Shown here piece after piece: positions 49,161 to 57,485 of a DNA stretch of 64,000 nt (positions within the stretch are counted from its first letter, which is position 1; the number at the start of each line of letters is the position of its first letter). The notes under the pieces are model-generated. The model saw only the letters and a program-made list of their open reading frames with translations, was not told the DNA's origin and did not search any database. A program made the translations under genes and the position numbers. Origin of the DNA: Rarobacter incanus (GTDB lineage Bacteria; Actinomycetota; Actinomycetes; Actinomycetales; Cellulomonadaceae); NCBI RefSeq assembly GCF_006715765.1, contig NZ_VFNV01000001.1, forward strand, positions 1,426,001 through 1,490,000, given 5' to 3'.

Positions 49161-49444
49161 CACAACCACCAACTTCCAAATCGCGTATCAATGAGTCGCC
49201 TCCCGTTTCAAAAGATGAACCCGGTGACGCGCACAGACGCTATGGCAGCCCTCTGACATTCGTTGTCAGAGCCCCAACTCCACACCAAAACGCAACTCAT
49301 GCAAGACGCGGAAGCCGGGCCTCGTCCCCGTAATTAATGACGAGCGCCCCCCGCCCTTGCCCCCTCGCGGAAGCGATATCCGAAGGGATTGAACCAACAT
49401 TGGTCTTCATGGCACCATGTTCTTACAAACGAGGGGTCTTCGTG

Positions 49445-49477
49445 GCTGGGAATCGTGCTTCACCTCATCGAAGCTTC
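49445..49477 (+). ncRNA. Solitary degenerate CRISPR repeat in crRNA orientation (possible natural guide RNA)
   Basis: GCTGGGAATCGT (49445-49456) is identical to the first 12 bases of the array repeat in crRNA sense. The following bases keep TTCA, CCTC, CGA and a final CTTC in the same order with small gaps. It lies on the plus strand, the same strand as the tracrRNA and cas9, about 360 bp upstream of the tracrRNA, whose anti-repeat (49808-49819) can pair with it. Orientation means any sequence just upstream (ending GGGTCTTCGTG) would be the guide part. This resembles scaRNA of Francisella or mini-arrays that make Cas9 repress its own or other genes. Transcription is not shown. The ~280 bp upstream (49161-49444) hold one hairpin (CTCTGACA, 49251-49271) and no gene. 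Confidence 0.6.
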
Positions 49478-49518
49478 TCGCTTTCGTTTAATCGAGCAAC
49501 TGCACAAAGGAGTGCACC

Positions 49519-49797
49519 GTGAAGATTCGATTTTCCTTGGCGTTCCAGATTTCTTTTGTCTGTCACAGACCCCGTTTCAAAACGGTGCGCATTAATTCAC
49601 CGCGCCACCCTTATGCACGTCCGCCGCTGCGCCCGGACATCGATTGGAGCAATCGCAGGCGCCGCAGCGAGGTTCGCCCACCATCGCCAAGCATTGTGCC
49701 GCCCATAGAACACACGCACACGGCGCACAGCGCCCACCTGACCTGCCGGGCAAATGCACGATTTAAGTGCTTGACCTGTAAGAACATCCACCTGTAA
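49519..49797 (+). other. Open frame of 92 codons with a ribosome site, doubtful gene
   Basis: GTG 49519 has AAAGGAG 7 nt upstream, and that site sits in a small hairpin loop (TGCAC-AAAGGA-GTGCA, 49501-49516). The start MKIRFSLAFQISFVC is hydrophobic, but the rest is Arg/Pro/His-rich without any pattern, and the frame ends inside the tracrRNA promoter. I give it a low chance of being real. If it is expressed, the first ~15 codons could also be an RNA tail of the guide element. Confidence 0.15.
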
Positions 49798-49800
49798 CTT
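49771..49800 (+). promoter_or_regulatory. Candidate tracrRNA promoter
   Basis: TTGACC (49771-49776) and TAACTT (49795-49800) with 18-bp spacing place transcription start near 49806, exactly where the anti-repeat begins. ACCTGTAA occurs twice, 16 bp apart, across it. An 11-base block TGTAAGAACAT (49777-49787) is the exact complement of a block beside the solitary repeat (49417-49427). Confidence 0.55.
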
Positions 49801-49805
49801 TGAAC

Positions 49806-49892
49806 TTACGATTCCCAGTAGGTCCCGACAGGTTAGCGGGACTGAATTCTCCACCGACACGCCCGCGGGTAACCCTGCGGGCGTTCGGCTTA
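49806..49892 (+). ncRNA. tracrRNA of the type II-C system
   Basis: The anti-repeat ACGATTCCCAGT (49808-49819) is complementary to the first 12 bases of the crRNA repeat, with one G:U pair. It is followed by a nexus stem GTCCCG/CGGGAC (49822-49842), a single-strand GAATTCTCCACCG segment, and a GC-rich end hairpin CGCCCGCGGG/CCC-T-GCGGGCG (49860-49883). This order matches the C. diphtheriae tracrRNA plan, which has GATTGCTCCGCCGG in the same place. The end is placed after TTCGGCTTAT. It lies 75 bp before cas9 on the same strand. Confidence 0.88.
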
Positions 49893-49966
49893 TATAAATC
49901 AATACGCTCGGGCACCGCCACTAGGTGGCGCGTTCCCGGCGCGGATATCGCAGCAAGGAGTCAAAG

Positions 49967-52900
49967 ATGACCCGCACGGTCGCTGGCATTGACGTCGGCG
50001 CGAACTCGGTAGGGGTAGCGCTGTGGGAGCTAGACGATGATGGCACCCCAGTTGCCCTACTTAACGCCCAGACATTTCTGCACGACGGCGGCGTGCACCG
50101 GGGACTCGAAAAGGCAGCTACCAGCCGGCTGGAAGCTGCAGGGATCGCGCGGCGCACCAGACGCAGGTACCGCAGGCGCAAGCTCCGGCTCGAAGAACTT
50201 GATTCGGTCTTGGCTAGCAACGGATTCCAAGTGGCAACTCAACCGCCTAAGGACCCCCGCGCACCATGGCTATATCGCGCCGCACTAGCGGGCGGATTTA
50301 TCGCGGATCCCGATCGCCGGGCGCTAATGATTGCGGAATCCGTACGCCACATCGCGCGCCACCGCGGTTGGCGCAACCCGTATCAGCGCGTGGAAGCGCT
50401 CCGGGGGTACACCGCACCCAGCGAGCCGTTCGAAAAGATGGCGGATTTGCTTGGCGTATCGCCAAACAATAGCGACGGCGAGATCATGACGGTCGGACAA
50501 ATCGTTGCCGAGGCAATCGCCGAAAAGTCGGGACTCCCCGCGGGCCCGAAGCTCCGCGGACCGAGCGGCGCCATGGTCGCCCGCCTCCTCCAAAGCGACC
50601 TTGCGAATGAGTTACACACCATTTTCGAGGTCCAACAGGTCGATCCAGACACGGCATGGGCCATTGAGCAAGCCGTATTCGCTGCGGAATCGCCCCGCGG
50701 GTCAGCGGAAGGCCGGGTCGGAAAAGACCCCCTGCCCGGTCAGCGCGCGCACCCGCGATCCTCGAAATCCTCGCCGGCTTTCCAAGAGTTCCGCATCCGC
50801 GCCACCATCGCAAATCTGCGAATATCCGAGGCCGGCACCGAGCACCCCTTGGACAAGGACCAACGCAGGATCGTCGCCGATTGGCTCCTGGCCTGGAGCG
50901 ATTCGGAATCTCCGACTTGGGGCATGGTCGCCGAACTCCTGGGGATACCGCGGCGCTCGCTCATGGGAACCGCCAACGCGGGTCCCGACGGCGAACCCGC
51001 AACACGCCCGCCAACGGATCGAACCAATCACCTCATGAGCCGGTGCTCTGTTGGCGCTGTCAGAGAATGGTGGCGCGATGCAAATGAGGCTGACCGGACT
51101 GCATTTACCGAATTGATAGCCGGGTCGCGGCAGACCGAGGCAAGCTCCGAAGAGCAGGCGGAGGTCGACGAATTATTCGCATCGTTGACCCCTGAAGAAC
51201 TCATCAAATTGGAAGCGCTGGATCTGCCCCGCGGCAGAGCCGCTTATTCGGTCAATTCGTTGCGGCGCCTGAATGCCAGATTATCCTCTTCCGAATTGGA
51301 CCTCCATGCAGCCTTACAGGCGGAATTCGGAGTAGACAACGACTGGCGCCCACCCGTCGATCCCATCGGGGCAACGATCGGAAACCCGGCCGTTGACCGC
51401 GTAACCCGCATCGTCGGGCGGTGGCTTGAACAAGTCGGACGCCGCTGGGGCGCGCCAGAAAGGGTCGTCATCGAACACGTGCGCGACGCGTTTGTGAGCG
51501 TCGCTCGCGCCCGCGAAATGGAGCGGGAAGCGGAATCGCGCAGGCGGAAACGTGAAGCCGCCAGGCAACGGTTTGCCGCAGAAACCGGCACGCCAACCGA
51601 TCAAGTGCGCGACGAACAGGTACGCCGGTTCCTTATCGTCGAGCGCCAAGACGCCACGTGCGTCTACTGCGGTGCGGGCATCACCTACGCCTCCTCCCAA
51701 TTGGATCACATCAGACCGCGCCGCGGGAAAAGTAGCCGCTCGACCCAAGATAACCTCGTTGCGGTCTGCGTCTCGTGCAACCTCTCAAAATCGAACACGC
51801 CTTTCGCGGTGTGGGCAGAAAGGAGCACCAACCCGAACATCTCAGTCAAAGATGCCGTGAAACGGGTCAAAGCCTGGCGACACCTTTCCGATTTACCGAA
51901 TCCTGCCGCCCTGCGATCGCTGAAGACGCGGGTCATTCGTAACATCCAGACTGCGAATTACGACGATACTGACGAGCGTCCTATGGAGTCGGTCGCGTGG
52001 ATGGCACGGGAACTCGCGGCCCGCATCCAGGCGCACTTCAAAGACGAAACAAAGGTAAATGTCTACCGCGGGTCGATAACCGCACAGGCGCGCCGCGCCG
52101 CCGGCATTGACAAGGCCTTCACGATGATCGGCGGACAGGGTAAGCAACGCCTTGACCGGCGCCATCACGTTGTCGACGCGGCCGTGGTCGCTCTCATGAA
52201 GCCCTACGCCGCCCAGGTGCTTGGCGAGCGGCTTGCGATGCGGGACGCTGCGCGTTATACGCCCACCGCGGACGCGGCCGGGTGGAAGACCCATGAAGGA
52301 TCGACGCCAGCACTCGTTTCAGAGTTCCGCAGGTGGAAACATCGCATGGAAGCTGCGGTCAGTCTGCTGCAACGCGCGCTGGACGAGGACACCATCATCG
52401 TCCGCCGCCCGCTAAGACTCACGCCAAACGTCGGCAGGCTGCATGAGGATCAGGTGGCCTCGTTCTATCCAAAGAAAACGAAGAAGAACGAGGCCTCCGC
52501 CCCCGTAATCCGCCTGGGCGATGAGCTACCAGCCTCACTCATAGATCGGGCATCAACGCCCGCGCTGTGGCATGCGCTGACAAGGCACGAAGACTACGAC
52601 CCGCAGCGGGGTCTACCCGAATCGTCTGCTCGTCGCATCCGCGTGCAAGGAAGGCTAGTCGAGGCGATGGACCCCCTCGAGTTTTTCCCCACGCCTGCGG
52701 CCGCATTGACGGTTCGCGGCGGGTGGGTGAAACTCGGTGACGCACTGCACCATGCACGCGTCTACCGTTTCCAACACCGCGGCAAGACCGTCTACGGAAT
52801 GATTCGAGTCTTCGCGATTGACCTGCGCGGTGCCCGCGGCGGTGACGTATTCGGATTCGATCTGGATCCCGGTTCAATCAGTATGCGAACTGCCGAAACG

Positions 52901-53284
52901 AAATGCCGCAACGCGGTAGTGAACGGCGAGGCCGAGTATCTGGGCTGGCTGGTGCCGGGGGATGAAATACAGGTGAAGGTACCAATCGCCCGCGGATCGA
53001 TTGGTGAGTTCCTTGAGGCTTTCCCGGGTATTACTCGGTGGGAGGTAACTGGATTGGAATCACCCACAACCTTAAAAGTCCGCCCCCTCCTCTTGTCGAA
53101 GGAAGCGACCCCCGCCGACCTCTCAGAAAACGCCACGACAGTTATTCAGAAAGCATGGCGGCCCAAAATAAACGTCCTGATGCAGATGCCTGGTCTAAAG
53201 GTTGTCCGTCGCGACACCCTCGGACGCGAAAGACAGGAATCCGCCGCCCACCTCCCAGTCTCGTGGTCGCCGCAGGCTGAGTGA
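49967..53284 (+). CDS. cas9: CRISPR-associated endonuclease Cas9, type II-C
   Basis: 1105 aa from ATG 49967, with AAGGAG 6 nt upstream. It uses tracrRNA:crRNA to cut double-stranded DNA beside a PAM. RuvC-I has D9 in GIDVGANSVGVALWE. The Arg-rich bridge helix is RRTRRRYRRRKLRLEEL. RuvC-II has E503 in VVIEHVRDAF. The HNH domain has CVYCG, LDHIRPR with H581, and CVSCNLSKSN. RuvC-III has H734 and D737 in HHVVDAAVVA. All catalytic residues are present, so the enzyme should cut. Size and the lack of csn2 or cas4 mean subtype II-C. cas1 follows after 6 bp. Confidence 0.97.
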   Translation: MTRTVAGIDVGANSVGVALWELDDDGTPVALLNAQTFLHDGGVHRGLEKAATSRLEAAGIARRTRRRYRRRKLRLEELDSVLASNGFQVATQPPKDPRAPWLYRAALAGGFIADPDRRALMIAESVRHIARHRGWRNPYQRVEALRGYTAPSEPFEKMADLLGVSPNNSDGEIMTVGQIVAEAIAEKSGLPAGPKLRGPSGAMVARLLQSDLANELHTIFEVQQVDPDTAWAIEQAVFAAESPRGSAEGRVGKDPLPGQRAHPRSSKSSPAFQEFRIRATIANLRISEAGTEHPLDKDQRRIVADWLLAWSDSESPTWGMVAELLGIPRRSLMGTANAGPDGEPATRPPTDRTNHLMSRCSVGAVREWWRDANEADRTAFTELIAGSRQTEASSEEQAEVDELFASLTPEELIKLEALDLPRGRAAYSVNSLRRLNARLSSSELDLHAALQAEFGVDNDWRPPVDPIGATIGNPAVDRVTRIVGRWLEQVGRRWGAPERVVIEHVRDAFVSVARAREMEREAESRRRKREAARQRFAAETGTPTDQVRDEQVRRFLIVERQDATCVYCGAGITYASSQLDHIRPRRGKSSRSTQDNLVAVCVSCNLSKSNTPFAVWAERSTNPNISVKDAVKRVKAWRHLSDLPNPAALRSLKTRVIRNIQTANYDDTDERPMESVAWMARELAARIQAHFKDETKVNVYRGSITAQARRAAGIDKAFTMIGGQGKQRLDRRHHVVDAAVVALMKPYAAQVLGERLAMRDAARYTPTADAAGWKTHEGSTPALVSEFRRWKHRMEAAVSLLQRALDEDTIIVRRPLRLTPNVGRLHEDQVASFYPKKTKKNEASAPVIRLGDELPASLIDRASTPALWHALTRHEDYDPQRGLPESSARRIRVQGRLVEAMDPLEFFPTPAAALTVRGGWVKLGDALHHARVYRFQHRGKTVYGMIRVFAIDLRGARGGDVFGFDLDPGSISMRTAETKCRNAVVNGEAEYLGWLVPGDEIQVKVPIARGSIGEFLEAFPGITRWEVTGLESPTTLKVRPLLLSKEATPADLSENATTVIQKAWRPKINVLMQMPGLKVVRRDTLGRERQESAAHLPVSWSPQAE

Positions 53285-53290
53285 CGTGAC

Positions 53291-54205
53291 ATGGCTAGGG
53301 GCTGGCAGGTTCTTGATGTAACAAGTTCACCTGTCTCGATACGGCATCGGCGCGGTGAGCTTCAGGTATGTGTCGATGGCGAAATTGTGGGACGTGCGAT
53401 GCTCGCCGATTTAGCCGTCGTGCTGATCGGTGCTCGTTCGAGTGTATCCGGCGGTGCGCTCATCGCCGCGACCGAGCATGACGTTGCAATACTTATGTGC
53501 GATTGGCGAGGCGTCCCCGTCGGTGGTGCGTATGCGTGGTCGAATACGACCCGCGTCGGCGCTCGCAACCGCGCACAAGCAGCGCTCAGCGCCCCCAGGC
53601 GAAAGAATGCGTGGGGCCGGGTCGTGCGCGCCAAGATCCTCGGCCAGGCTCACACCCTGGATGCCATCGGCAGGTCAGGTGGGAATGAACTTCGCGACAT
53701 TGCTAACTCGGTTAGGTCCGGCGATCCCGAGAACCGCGAGGGCCTGGCGGCTCGTATCTACTGGCAACGCCTTTTCGGCCACGAAGAGTTCTCCCGCATA
53801 CCCGGTTCCGCGGAGGGACGAAACGCACTTCTCAACTACGCGTACACCATACTGCGCGGTCACGGAATCCGTGCGGTACTGGCAGCCGGGCTCAGCCCCA
53901 CCCTGGGCGTATTCCATCGCGGCCGCAGCAACCCATTCTCACTGGTCGACGACATGATCGAGCCGTTCCGCCCGGCCATCGACTACGCCGTCGCGCAGAT
54001 CGATGTGGAAGCCCCCGGCATGGACGCCCCTGCGACCAAAAAGCACCTGGTCAATGCATCACGAATGGGCTTCGGTTGCGGCCGGATTCTCACGACAGAG
54101 ATGGATTCATTGGCGCAACGCTTCGGACGCTACGTTGAAGGCGAAGTGGCAAAGCTGGACGTGCCGGTGTGGGACGGACCCGAGGAAGTCATTGACGATG
54201 AGTGA
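53291..54205 (+). CDS. cas1: CRISPR integrase subunit Cas1
   Basis: 304 aa, the usual size for type II. With Cas2 it inserts new spacers. The metal site residues are E150 (NREGLAARIYWQR), H209 (LGVFHRGRSNPFSLVDD) and E224 (MIEPFRP). The N-terminal beta domain has ALIAATEHDVAILMCD. It starts 6 bp after cas9 and its stop overlaps the cas2 start (ATGAGTGA), so the three genes form one operon. Confidence 0.96.
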   Translation: MARGWQVLDVTSSPVSIRHRRGELQVCVDGEIVGRAMLADLAVVLIGARSSVSGGALIAATEHDVAILMCDWRGVPVGGAYAWSNTTRVGARNRAQAALSAPRRKNAWGRVVRAKILGQAHTLDAIGRSGGNELRDIANSVRSGDPENREGLAARIYWQRLFGHEEFSRIPGSAEGRNALLNYAYTILRGHGIRAVLAAGLSPTLGVFHRGRSNPFSLVDDMIEPFRPAIDYAVAQIDVEAPGMDAPATKKHLVNASRMGFGCGRILTTEMDSLAQRFGRYVEGEVAKLDVPVWDGPEEVIDDE

Positions 54206-54518
54206 GGATCCGATGTGGGCAATCGTCATGTTCGATCTGCCAGTCCAAACTAAGGAACAGCGCCGGGAAGCGACCGCCTATCGCCATCTCCTGAAGGACT
54301 TAGGCTTTCAAATGGTCCAGTTGTCGGTGTATGCGCGATACTCCGTAACGTCCGCAACAAGCCTTCGGCTCGCTTCAACCTTGTCTGCGTACCTACCTAA
54401 GGGTGGGGAGGTGCGCATACTTCGCGTCACTGATCGGCAGTGGTCCCAAGGTTTCCGTTTTTGCAACGGAGACCCCTCCGACATCGAGCAGGCACCCGCT
54501 CCGCTGCTGCTTTTCTAA
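54198..54518 (+). CDS. cas2: CRISPR integrase subunit Cas2
   Basis: 106 aa. Starts MSEDPMWAIVMFDLPVQTKE; D13 is the conserved acidic residue at the end of the first strand. It forms the core dimer of the Cas1-Cas2 integrase. The ATG overlaps the end of cas1 by 8 bp. A second ATG 15 bp downstream would also fit. The stop codon is part of a long hairpin. Confidence 0.95.
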   Translation: MSEDPMWAIVMFDLPVQTKEQRREATAYRHLLKDLGFQMVQLSVYARYSVTSATSLRLASTLSAYLPKGGEVRILRVTDRQWSQGFRFCNGDPSDIEQAPAPLLLF

Positions 54519-54559
54519 TCGTGGTTCTGACCTATTTCAGCAGGTCAGAACCACGATTA
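54516..54559. terminator. Perfect 18-bp hairpin between cas2 and the CRISPR array
   Basis: Arms 54516-54533 (TAATCGTGGTTCTGACCT) and 54542-54559 are exact complements with an 8-nt loop; the left arm starts with the cas2 stop codon. It ends 10 bp before the first repeat. Both the cas operon (rightward) and the crRNA transcript (leftward) run into it, so it is probably a bidirectional terminator. No U-run follows on either strand, so another role, e.g. RNA protection, remains possible. Confidence 0.75.
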
Positions 54560-54569
54560 GGGCCTCTCA

Positions 54570-57485
54570 GAAGTCTATCGGAGGGGCCTGAATACGATTC
54601 CCAGCATAGGCGTAGTGAGTACAGCGCTAGGGTGAAGTCTATCGGAGGGGCCTGAATACGATTCCCAGCGTTGCCTAGATGTTAGTGCCTAGTGCGAGAA
54701 GTCTATCGGAGGGGCCTGAATACGATTCCCAGCATAGGTTTGTTGTGCCGGAGCCTCTGACGAAGTCTATCGGAGGGGCCTGAATACGATTCCCAGCACC
54801 TCAAAACCCTCACCGACACCGAACTGAAGTCTATCGGAGGGGCCTGAATACGATTCCCAGCACTAGGCCGTATCCGAAAACGTGTAGAGGAAGTCTATCG
54901 GAGGGGCCTGAATACGATTCCCAGCAAGCTCTCTGTCACTGGCGAGCAGCACTGAAGTCTATCGGAGGGGCCTGAATACGATTCCCAGCCTCGGTCAGGG
55001 TCTGCGCAGGGTGGGCAGAAGTCTATCGGAGGGGCCTGAATACGATTCCCAGCCCTCTCGAATCGCTCAAAGCCGCATCGCGAAGTCTATCGGAGGGGCC
55101 TGAATACGATTCCCAGCTGGGTGTTGGTGGGCTTGAGGGCACGACGAAGTCTATCGGAGGGGCCTGAATACGATTCCCAGCTCAGGCCGGTGAGCGACCT
55201 GCTTGCAGGGAAGTCTATCGGAGGGGCCTGAATACGATTCCCAGCAGTGGCGTACGGAGGTTCGGGGCGAACAGAAGTCTATCGGAGGGGCCTGAATACG
55301 ATTCCCAGCCCGGTCGAGGGGATCGCGTTGCCGTGAGGAAGTCTATCGGAGGGGCCTGAATACGATTCCCAGCATTCCGGGCCATTGTCGGAGTTTGTGC
55401 AGAAGTCTATCGGAGGGGCCTGAATACGATTCCCAGCTTCAAATCAAACGCGCACGCAAAGTCGTGAAGTCTATCGGAGGGGCCTGAATACGATTCCCAG
55501 CGATTGCCGACACTAGGGCGTAATTAGCGGAAGTCTATCGGAGGGGCCTGAATACGATTCCCAGCGTCTCATTGATTACGGCACCGCATTTGCGAAGTCT
55601 ATCGGAGGGGCCTGAATACGATTCCCAGCCCGAACAGGAACGGCGACAGCGACTATCGAAGTCTATCGGAGGGGCCTGAATACGATTCCCAGCAGGACAG
55701 TGATGCCGCCGTTGCGCGTGTGAAGTCTATCGGAGGGGCCTGAATACGATTCCCAGCCCGCCGCGCGCGCCCACTTCGCGCCGGAGAAGTCTATCGGAGG
55801 GGCCTGAATACGATTCCCAGCCCGAAGATCGTTCGCACGAAATCCCACGGAAGTCTATCGGAGGGGCCTGAATACGATTCCCAGCATAGAACAAGCCCGA
55901 GCGCGGCCCCGTGGAAGTCTATCGGAGGGGCCTGAATACGATTCCCAGCGAGAATCCAACGCTTCAGCCCACGCGGTGAAGTCTATCGGAGGGGCCTGAA
56001 TACGATTCCCAGCGTTCCTGGAGAGGCTCGGCGGGTGAACCGAAGTCTATCGGAGGGGCCTGAATACGATTCCCAGCCCAGGGCGGTCATGCTGCGAACC
56101 CTTTAGAAGTCTATCGGAGGGGCCTGAATACGATTCCCAGCACTGAACGCGCGGATTATGCGCAGATTAGAAGTCTATCGGAGGGGCCTGAATACGATTC
56201 CCAGCACGTGCTTCCCTTCGCGACGGATCGCGTGAAGTCTATCGGAGGGGCCTGAATACGATTCCCAGCGGGTTTACCGGTGCACGATGACCACGGTGAA
56301 GTCTATCGGAGGGGCCTGAATACGATTCCCAGCGAATCCGCGGTTTTCAGGTCTGCCGGCAGAAGTCTATCGGAGGGGCCTGAATACGATTCCCAGCGTC
56401 TCGCGGTATTCAGGGTTAGTAATGCGAAGTCTATCGGAGGGGCCTGAATACGATTCCCAGCGGATACAAGCCCGACTCGATCAACACTTGAAGTCTATCG
56501 GAGGGGCCTGAATACGATTCCCAGCATTCCGGGCCATTGTCGGAGTTTGTGCAGAAGTCTATCGGAGGGGCCTGAATACGATTCCCAGCGTGAGCGGCGA
56601 GCGGTGAGCGGGCAGTCGAAGTCTATCGGAGGGGCCTGAATACGATTCCCAGCCGTATCTCGTCGCCGCGGGCACGGTCGGGAAGTCTATCGGAGGGGCC
56701 TGAATACGATTCCCAGCTGGACGCATAAGCATGGCGCAGATCGGAGAAGTCTATCGGAGGGGCCTGAATACGATTCCCAGCAAGAGTGCGCCAGGGTGCC
56801 AGAAGTCCAGAAGTCTATCGGAGGGGCCTGAATACGATTCCCAGCGGGAGCGACCAGCGGAGCGCAGCGTAGCGAAGTCTATCGGAGGGGCCTGAATACG
56901 ATTCCCAGCCTGTCGTGTAGTAGTCGTCGTCGGTCGTGAAGTCTATCGGAGGGGCCTGAATACGATTCCCAGCCATCTAAGGGGCGTAGACAACTCACTT
57001 GGAAGTCTATCGGAGGGGCCTGAATACGATTCCCAGCTTCCCGCTGGGCAGTCGGTGACGATCGAGAAGTCTATCGGAGGGGCCTGAATACGATTCCCAG
57101 CGGATACAAGCCCGACTCGATCAACATTTGAAGTCTATCGGAGGGGCCTGAATACGATTCCCAGCTACGCGCGCGACCACGCGGCGATCAACCGAAGTCT
57201 ATCGGAGGGGCCTGAATACGATTCCCAGCGGAATCGGCGGCGTTCATGCTCGGTTCAGAAGTCTATCGGAGGGGCCTGAATACGATTCCCAGCATGAGGC
57301 TGGACAGGCACTCGTGCTCCAGAAGTCTATCGGAGGGGCCTGAATACGATTCCCAGCTGTGGCTGAGTCCCGTAAAGGGTTTTGCGAAGTCTATCGGAGG
57401 GGCCTGAATACGATTCCCAGCACGGGCGCACGGACTGGCACCGCGTGACGAAGTCTATCGGAGGGGCCTGAATACGATTCCCAGC
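54570..57485 (-). CRISPR. Type II-C CRISPR array: 46 repeats of 36 bp, 45 spacers of 28 bp
   Basis: Repeats recur every 64 bp from 54570 to the last at 57450-57485. On the plus strand each starts GAAGTCTATCGG and ends ACGATTCCCAGC. All copies read appear identical, including the end ones. crRNA sense is the minus strand (repeat starting GCTGGGAATCGT and ending GATAGACTTC), shown by pairing with the tracrRNA and by likeness to the C. diphtheriae repeat. TAGACT at the crRNA 3' end of the repeat is a -10-like element, as in Neisseria arrays where each repeat drives its own crRNA. Two spacers occur twice. The identical repeats and many spacers suggest an active system. Confidence 0.98.

Follow-up and report, generated by a model that had tools for sequence, protein, structure and literature searches.

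Does a single decayed CRISPR repeat beside a tracrRNA gene still provide Cas9 with a guide, or is it a relic without function? This question is raised by a locus of Rarobacter incanus, whose genome is a single contig (C1) of 2.49 Mb and in which a window of 64 kb (C1:1426001-1490000, the whole stretch of DNA analysed) was studied; coordinates without prefix are positions in this window. The cas locus runs in the order tracrRNA, cas9, cas1, cas2 and array, which is the layout of type II-C, and consists of the following features.

49771 to 49800, plus strand: tracrRNA promoter, TTGACC-18-TAACTT
49802 to 49893, plus strand: tracrRNA with anti-repeat GAACTTACGATTCCCAGT, nexus hairpin and 3' hairpin (folding z -3.7)
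49967 to 53284, plus strand: cas9, type II-C, 1105 aa, conserved catalytic residues present
53291 to 54205, plus strand: cas1 (type II)
54213 to 54518, plus strand: cas2
54570 to 57485, minus strand: CRISPR array of 46 identical 36-nt repeats and 45 spacers of 28 nt, its crRNA sense being the minus strand

The array repeat in crRNA sense is GCTGGGAATCGTATTCAGGCCCCTCCGATAGACTTC. The catalytic positions of Cas9 are invariant in an alignment of 13 sequences, and its nearest solved structures, by sequence, are those which we take from known PDB entries and papers to be the Cas9 proteins of Actinomyces naeslundii, Corynebacterium diphtheriae and Acidothermus. Given the intact Cas9, cas1 and cas2 and the 46 identical repeats, the CRISPR-Cas system looks active. 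Because the array flank on the cas2 side is alike among relatives (L050-L068), whose degenerate repeats lie at the opposite, far end, the comparison suggests that spacer acquisition takes place on the cas2 side, with the crRNA sense running toward cas2. In addition, two spacers of the array, AAGTGTTGATCGAGTCGGGCTTGTATCC and AAATGTTGATCGAGTCGGGCTTGTATCC, differ by one base, another, TGCACAAACTCCGACAATGGCCCGGAAT, is present as two exact copies, and the gap between cas2 and the array holds a perfect inverted repeat of 19 bp, with a loop of 8 nt (54515-54560), that is probably a terminator.

The element in question lies about 350 bp upstream of the tracrRNA.

49445 to 49477, plus strand: single degenerate CRISPR repeat, crRNA sense, sharing its first 12 nt with the array repeat

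The first-pass annotation had described a match to the array repeat, in crRNA sense, over the first 12 bases, with a decayed remainder, and had placed it on the strand of tracrRNA and cas9; both statements are confirmed. The bases GCTGGGAATCGT (49445-49456) are identical to bases 1-12 of the crRNA-sense repeat (12/12), and the following 21 bases (49457-49477) can be aligned globally, with gaps, to the last 24 repeat bases in the blocks TTCA, CCTC, CGA, AG and CTTC (p 0.0044 by mononucleotide shuffles and 0.0014 against 21-mers of the window). Dinucleotide shuffling of the 623-bp intergenic region, repeated 2000 times, never gave an alignment score as high as the observed one, nor a copy of the 12-mer. 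The strand, which is that of tracrRNA and cas9, is opposite to the array as written. From the 12-base identity, the alignable tail and the shuffles it follows that the element is a genuine, solitary, degenerate CRISPR repeat. No second repeat, even a degenerate one, was found upstream or downstream of it, and elsewhere in the genome, the array excepted, there is one more exact 12-mer (C1:1045487, minus strand), whose tail is unlike the repeat. Furthermore, the element has no Rfam family match, and the likeness of its upstream flank to the right flank of the array is not significant (62/300 shuffles equally good). Elsewhere on the minus strand of the genome, eight copies of GGGTCTTCGTT, mostly about 56 nt apart, occupy C1:436507-437153, which points to a tandem repeat.

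The tracrRNA starts, by its promoter boxes, at the anti-repeat, and thus GAACTTACGATTCCCAGT would be offered for pairing; TTGACA-type boxes likewise precede the anti-repeats of several relatives. The capacity of the element to pair with this anti-repeat, which had been proposed from the sequence, is supported by the predicted duplex of -23.7 kcal/mol, as compared with -25.0 kcal/mol for the true repeat, and the register of the element is the best for this pairing among 18,167 windows in the flanking 54 kb. The bases retained in the element, GCTGGGAATCGT and the adjoining TTC, are those needed by a short tracrRNA starting at the anti-repeat, so the element may make a short natural Cas9 guide. 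Folding together with the tracrRNA, suggested earlier as a check, gave the same picture: in a read-through RNA of 460 nt (49434-49893) the repeat stub is predicted to pair with the anti-repeat across the approximately 350 nt (49457-49806) that separate them.

What would precede the stub in such an RNA is given by the following two features.

49400 to 49429, plus strand: weak promoter-like pair TTGGTC-18-TACAAA, 7/12 consensus bases, predicted start about 49436
49434 to 49444, plus strand: putative guide GGGTCTTCGTG, of 9-11 nt for a transcription start at about 49434-49436, as judged from the -10-like hexamer

The proposal of a short guide is supported in that a plausible sequence of 9-11 nt stands before the stub, but less so in its signals, the promoter being weak, with none called at the element by a stricter promoter scan, and no terminator being found 3' of the element. 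A related sequence had also been noted 33 bp upstream, and it is present: GGTCTTCATGGC (49402-49413) precedes GGTCTTCGTGGC (49435-49446) by that distance, and an equally close pair of this type arises in 3/200 shuffles. Between the element and the tracrRNA there is a GTG open reading frame of 92 aa (49519-49797) with an AAAGGAG box, weak coding bias and no Pfam match. Among the neighbours that were tested, which are cas genes and genes of chromosomal type, no mobile element is recognisable.

A target of Cas9 must be sought beside its PAM. The array gave no match in a phage collection and matched only itself in 222 genomes of the family, and three 20-nt spacer ends had no match in IMG/VR; since these spacer searches gave no protospacer, the PAM rests on residue alignment. 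The Acidothermus enzyme AceCas9 recognises NNNCC via E1044, R1088 and R1091 (PMC7733487), and opposite these residues stand E1031, K1062 and R1065 in the Cas9 studied here, the C. diphtheriae Cas9 having F1011, P1043 and L1046 at those positions (PMC6488586). We infer from this that the PAM of the R. incanus Cas9 is NNNCC, a prediction which uses the protein only, though the candidate site described below was already known when it was made.

Targets were then sought in the genome by pattern searches. The 11-nt GGGTCTTCGTG has no exact copy elsewhere in the genome, and an exact 8-nt seed followed by NNNCC occurs at seven sites, all within genes or just downstream of one. When up to one mismatch was allowed, GGTCTTCGTG-NNNCC was found at 24 sites in the genome, one of which lies 33 bp upstream of the guide.

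49402 to 49416, plus strand: candidate target GGTCTTCATG (49402-49411) with PAM GCACC, 9/10 matching, mismatch at PAM-proximal position 3

The chance that one of the other 23 sites lies within 50 bp is about 0.001, rising to about 0.01 for 500 bp. The candidate lies outside all open reading frames of at least 80 aa and within the putative promoter of the element itself, its distance upstream from the predicted start being about 25 nt. Its likeness to the guide continues for two bases beyond the guide, which local duplication would explain equally well. The own promoter had been put forward as an early target; the GCACC flank, which fits the predicted PAM, speaks for this, and the mismatch, which falls in the seed, speaks against it. 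Likewise, the proposed genome search for guide matches beside a PAM yielded this near-match but no exact 11-nt site, and within the tracrRNA-cas9 gap (49820-49966) no guide match with a fitting PAM was found. According to the summary in PMC13431127, repression in Francisella novicida depends on a match of 9-15 bp beside a PAM, on the template strand and near the start site; the candidate target fits this rule in strand and fits it poorly in the seed.

Conservation was examined in loci of relatives. Counterparts of the element were sought in three overlapping sets, namely 17 relative loci, 22 further loci (about 13 with a readable repeat) and 62 of the 80 named loci that a profile scan gave, some of these 62 having yielded an incomplete repeat only and so being a weaker test. 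The expectation of conservation was not borne out: among about 60 related actinobacterial II-C loci, none of them a close relative, there was no crRNA-sense counterpart, and this includes the only same-genus cas9 locus (G202), whose upstream neighbourhood is different. The three further genomes of the genus contain no homologue of the intergenic region. As a positive control, the tracrRNA anti-repeat was found by these scans in several dozen loci. Plus-strand matches in the 62 loci comprised a lone mismatched 12-mer (L167), ribosome-binding regions (L219 and L226) and the anti-repeat itself. In L219 and L226, which are Bifidobacterium thermophilum and Pseudoscardovia radai, the ribosome-binding and start region of cas9, GGGAATTAGCATG, matches the crRNA-sense repeat at 11/12 positions, so that the anti-repeat could pair with the start of the cas9 mRNA there.

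The reading that we prefer, weakly and at rather less than even confidence, is that the element is a lineage-specific, crRNA-like short guide functional with Cas9. The first-pass suggestion of a natural Cas9 guide keeps its repeat origin, its pairing, a plausible guide and a PAM-fitting candidate site, while conservation and a clean target are missing. Nearly as likely is a functionless remnant, namely a single copy from an ancient inverted or duplicated piece of the array, perhaps left when the tracrRNA locus arose, which is decaying by chance. The lack of counterparts in the relative loci scanned and of a good target, the weak promoter and the absent terminator agree with such a relic, and six random edits would all spare the first third of the repeat with a probability of about 0.09; on the other hand, no further repeat remnants lie nearby, the degenerate repeats of relatives are at the far array end and not beside the tracrRNA, and the part that survives is precisely the part that pairs with the tracrRNA.

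That same pairing would also suit a repeat mimic without guide function, which occupies tracrRNA or Cas9 as a decoy like phage Racrs, or whose minus-strand transcript serves as a second anti-repeat sequestering crRNAs; the complement of the element is predicted to bind the array repeat at -26.5 kcal/mol, at least as strongly as the tracrRNA does (-25.0 kcal/mol). We regard a mimic as unlikely, as no mobile element is recognisable among the neighbouring genes tested and the minus strand, by eye, is without a tracrRNA-like nexus. Still less probable is a chance likeness in which the GGTCTTCrTGGC pair is the direct-repeat binding site of an ordinary regulator. The two copies do form a direct repeat, spaced by 33 bp, which encloses the short palindrome CATGGCACCATG, and an unrelated site elsewhere in the 64-kb window attains an alignment score of 28 against 32 for the element, but the intergenic shuffles never attained the latter score and the match begins at repeat base 1 on the tracrRNA strand.

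For the preferred reading, that of a short guide, the repeat match, strand, predicted pairing, intact Cas system and near-match with its PAM-fitting flank are computed, and from these we infer transcription, Cas9 loading and repression. An ectopic CRISPR repeat would have been exapted as a crRNA-like RNA, transcribed from the plus strand either as a short RNA from about 49436 or as the 5' portion of a longer tracrRNA. In this RNA a guide of about 9-11 nt would be followed by the repeat stub, which would pair with the anti-repeat and allow loading into Cas9. Since Cas9 with a guide this short binds DNA but does not cut it, the complex would act as a promoter repressor. Locally, the best candidate is the promoter of the element itself, and repression there would place the guide, and any read-through into tracrRNA and cas9, under negative feedback. 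A bolder and doubtful version has a type II-C Cas9 under autoregulation: a natural short guide, encoded upstream of the tracrRNA, would work in trans or as a split tracr-L with a long loop, would repress its own promoter and would in this way sense free Cas9-tracrRNA.

Several known systems resemble this proposal. The scaRNA is known in F. novicida (type II-B), and scaRNAs have been predicted in types II-A and II-C (PMC6199352). The element shares with them a degenerate repeat outside the array and, by prediction, pairing with tracrRNA, and a short guide with PAM-dependent repression would be expected; it differs from the F. novicida scaRNA in its host, a II-C actinobacterium, in its position upstream of the tracrRNA, in having no clear terminator and in having a candidate target only. 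The tracr-L of Streptococcus pyogenes (type II-A, PMC11417352) likewise combines guide, repeat-like stretch, anti-repeat and tracrRNA, in this order, on a single strand; its guide is of about 11 nt, and the short tracrRNA has a promoter of its own downstream. However, about 350 nt lie here between stub and anti-repeat instead of a compact single guide RNA, and tracr-L targets a cas promoter, whereas the tracrRNA-cas9 gap here is free of guide matches with a fitting PAM. The element resembles CreR and CreA (types I and V-A, PMC12737573, PMC9458426) in being a lone degenerate repeat next to cas genes that has a candidate promoter target close by, but the present proposal depends on Cas9 and tracrRNA. 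In CreTA the guide represses an adjacent toxin gene; no toxin gene is recognised here, the 92-aa open reading frame downstream of the element having no Pfam match and a weak coding bias. The partial spacer of CreR matches the cas promoter, whereas in this type II-C locus the candidate site is the element's own promoter. The Neisseria meningitidis scaRNA is a CRISPR-associated small RNA outside the array of another II-C locus, and it acts on mRNA with no detectable contribution of Cas9 in vivo and no DNA-type targets found (PMC13431127). Racrs and solitary repeat units (PMC10651486) are intergenic solitary repeat mimics too, but they lie on phages and plasmids and the element lies inside a host cas locus.

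Types II-A and II-B have known natural guides that make Cas9 a repressor, types I and V-A have similar RNAs, and the one II-C scaRNA studied seems to act on mRNA. If the preferred reading is true, a DNA-targeting natural guide in a II-C actinobacterium would add a further Cas9 subtype to those with RNA-guided autoregulation, and would show that one lineage can evolve such autoregulation out of a single repeat.
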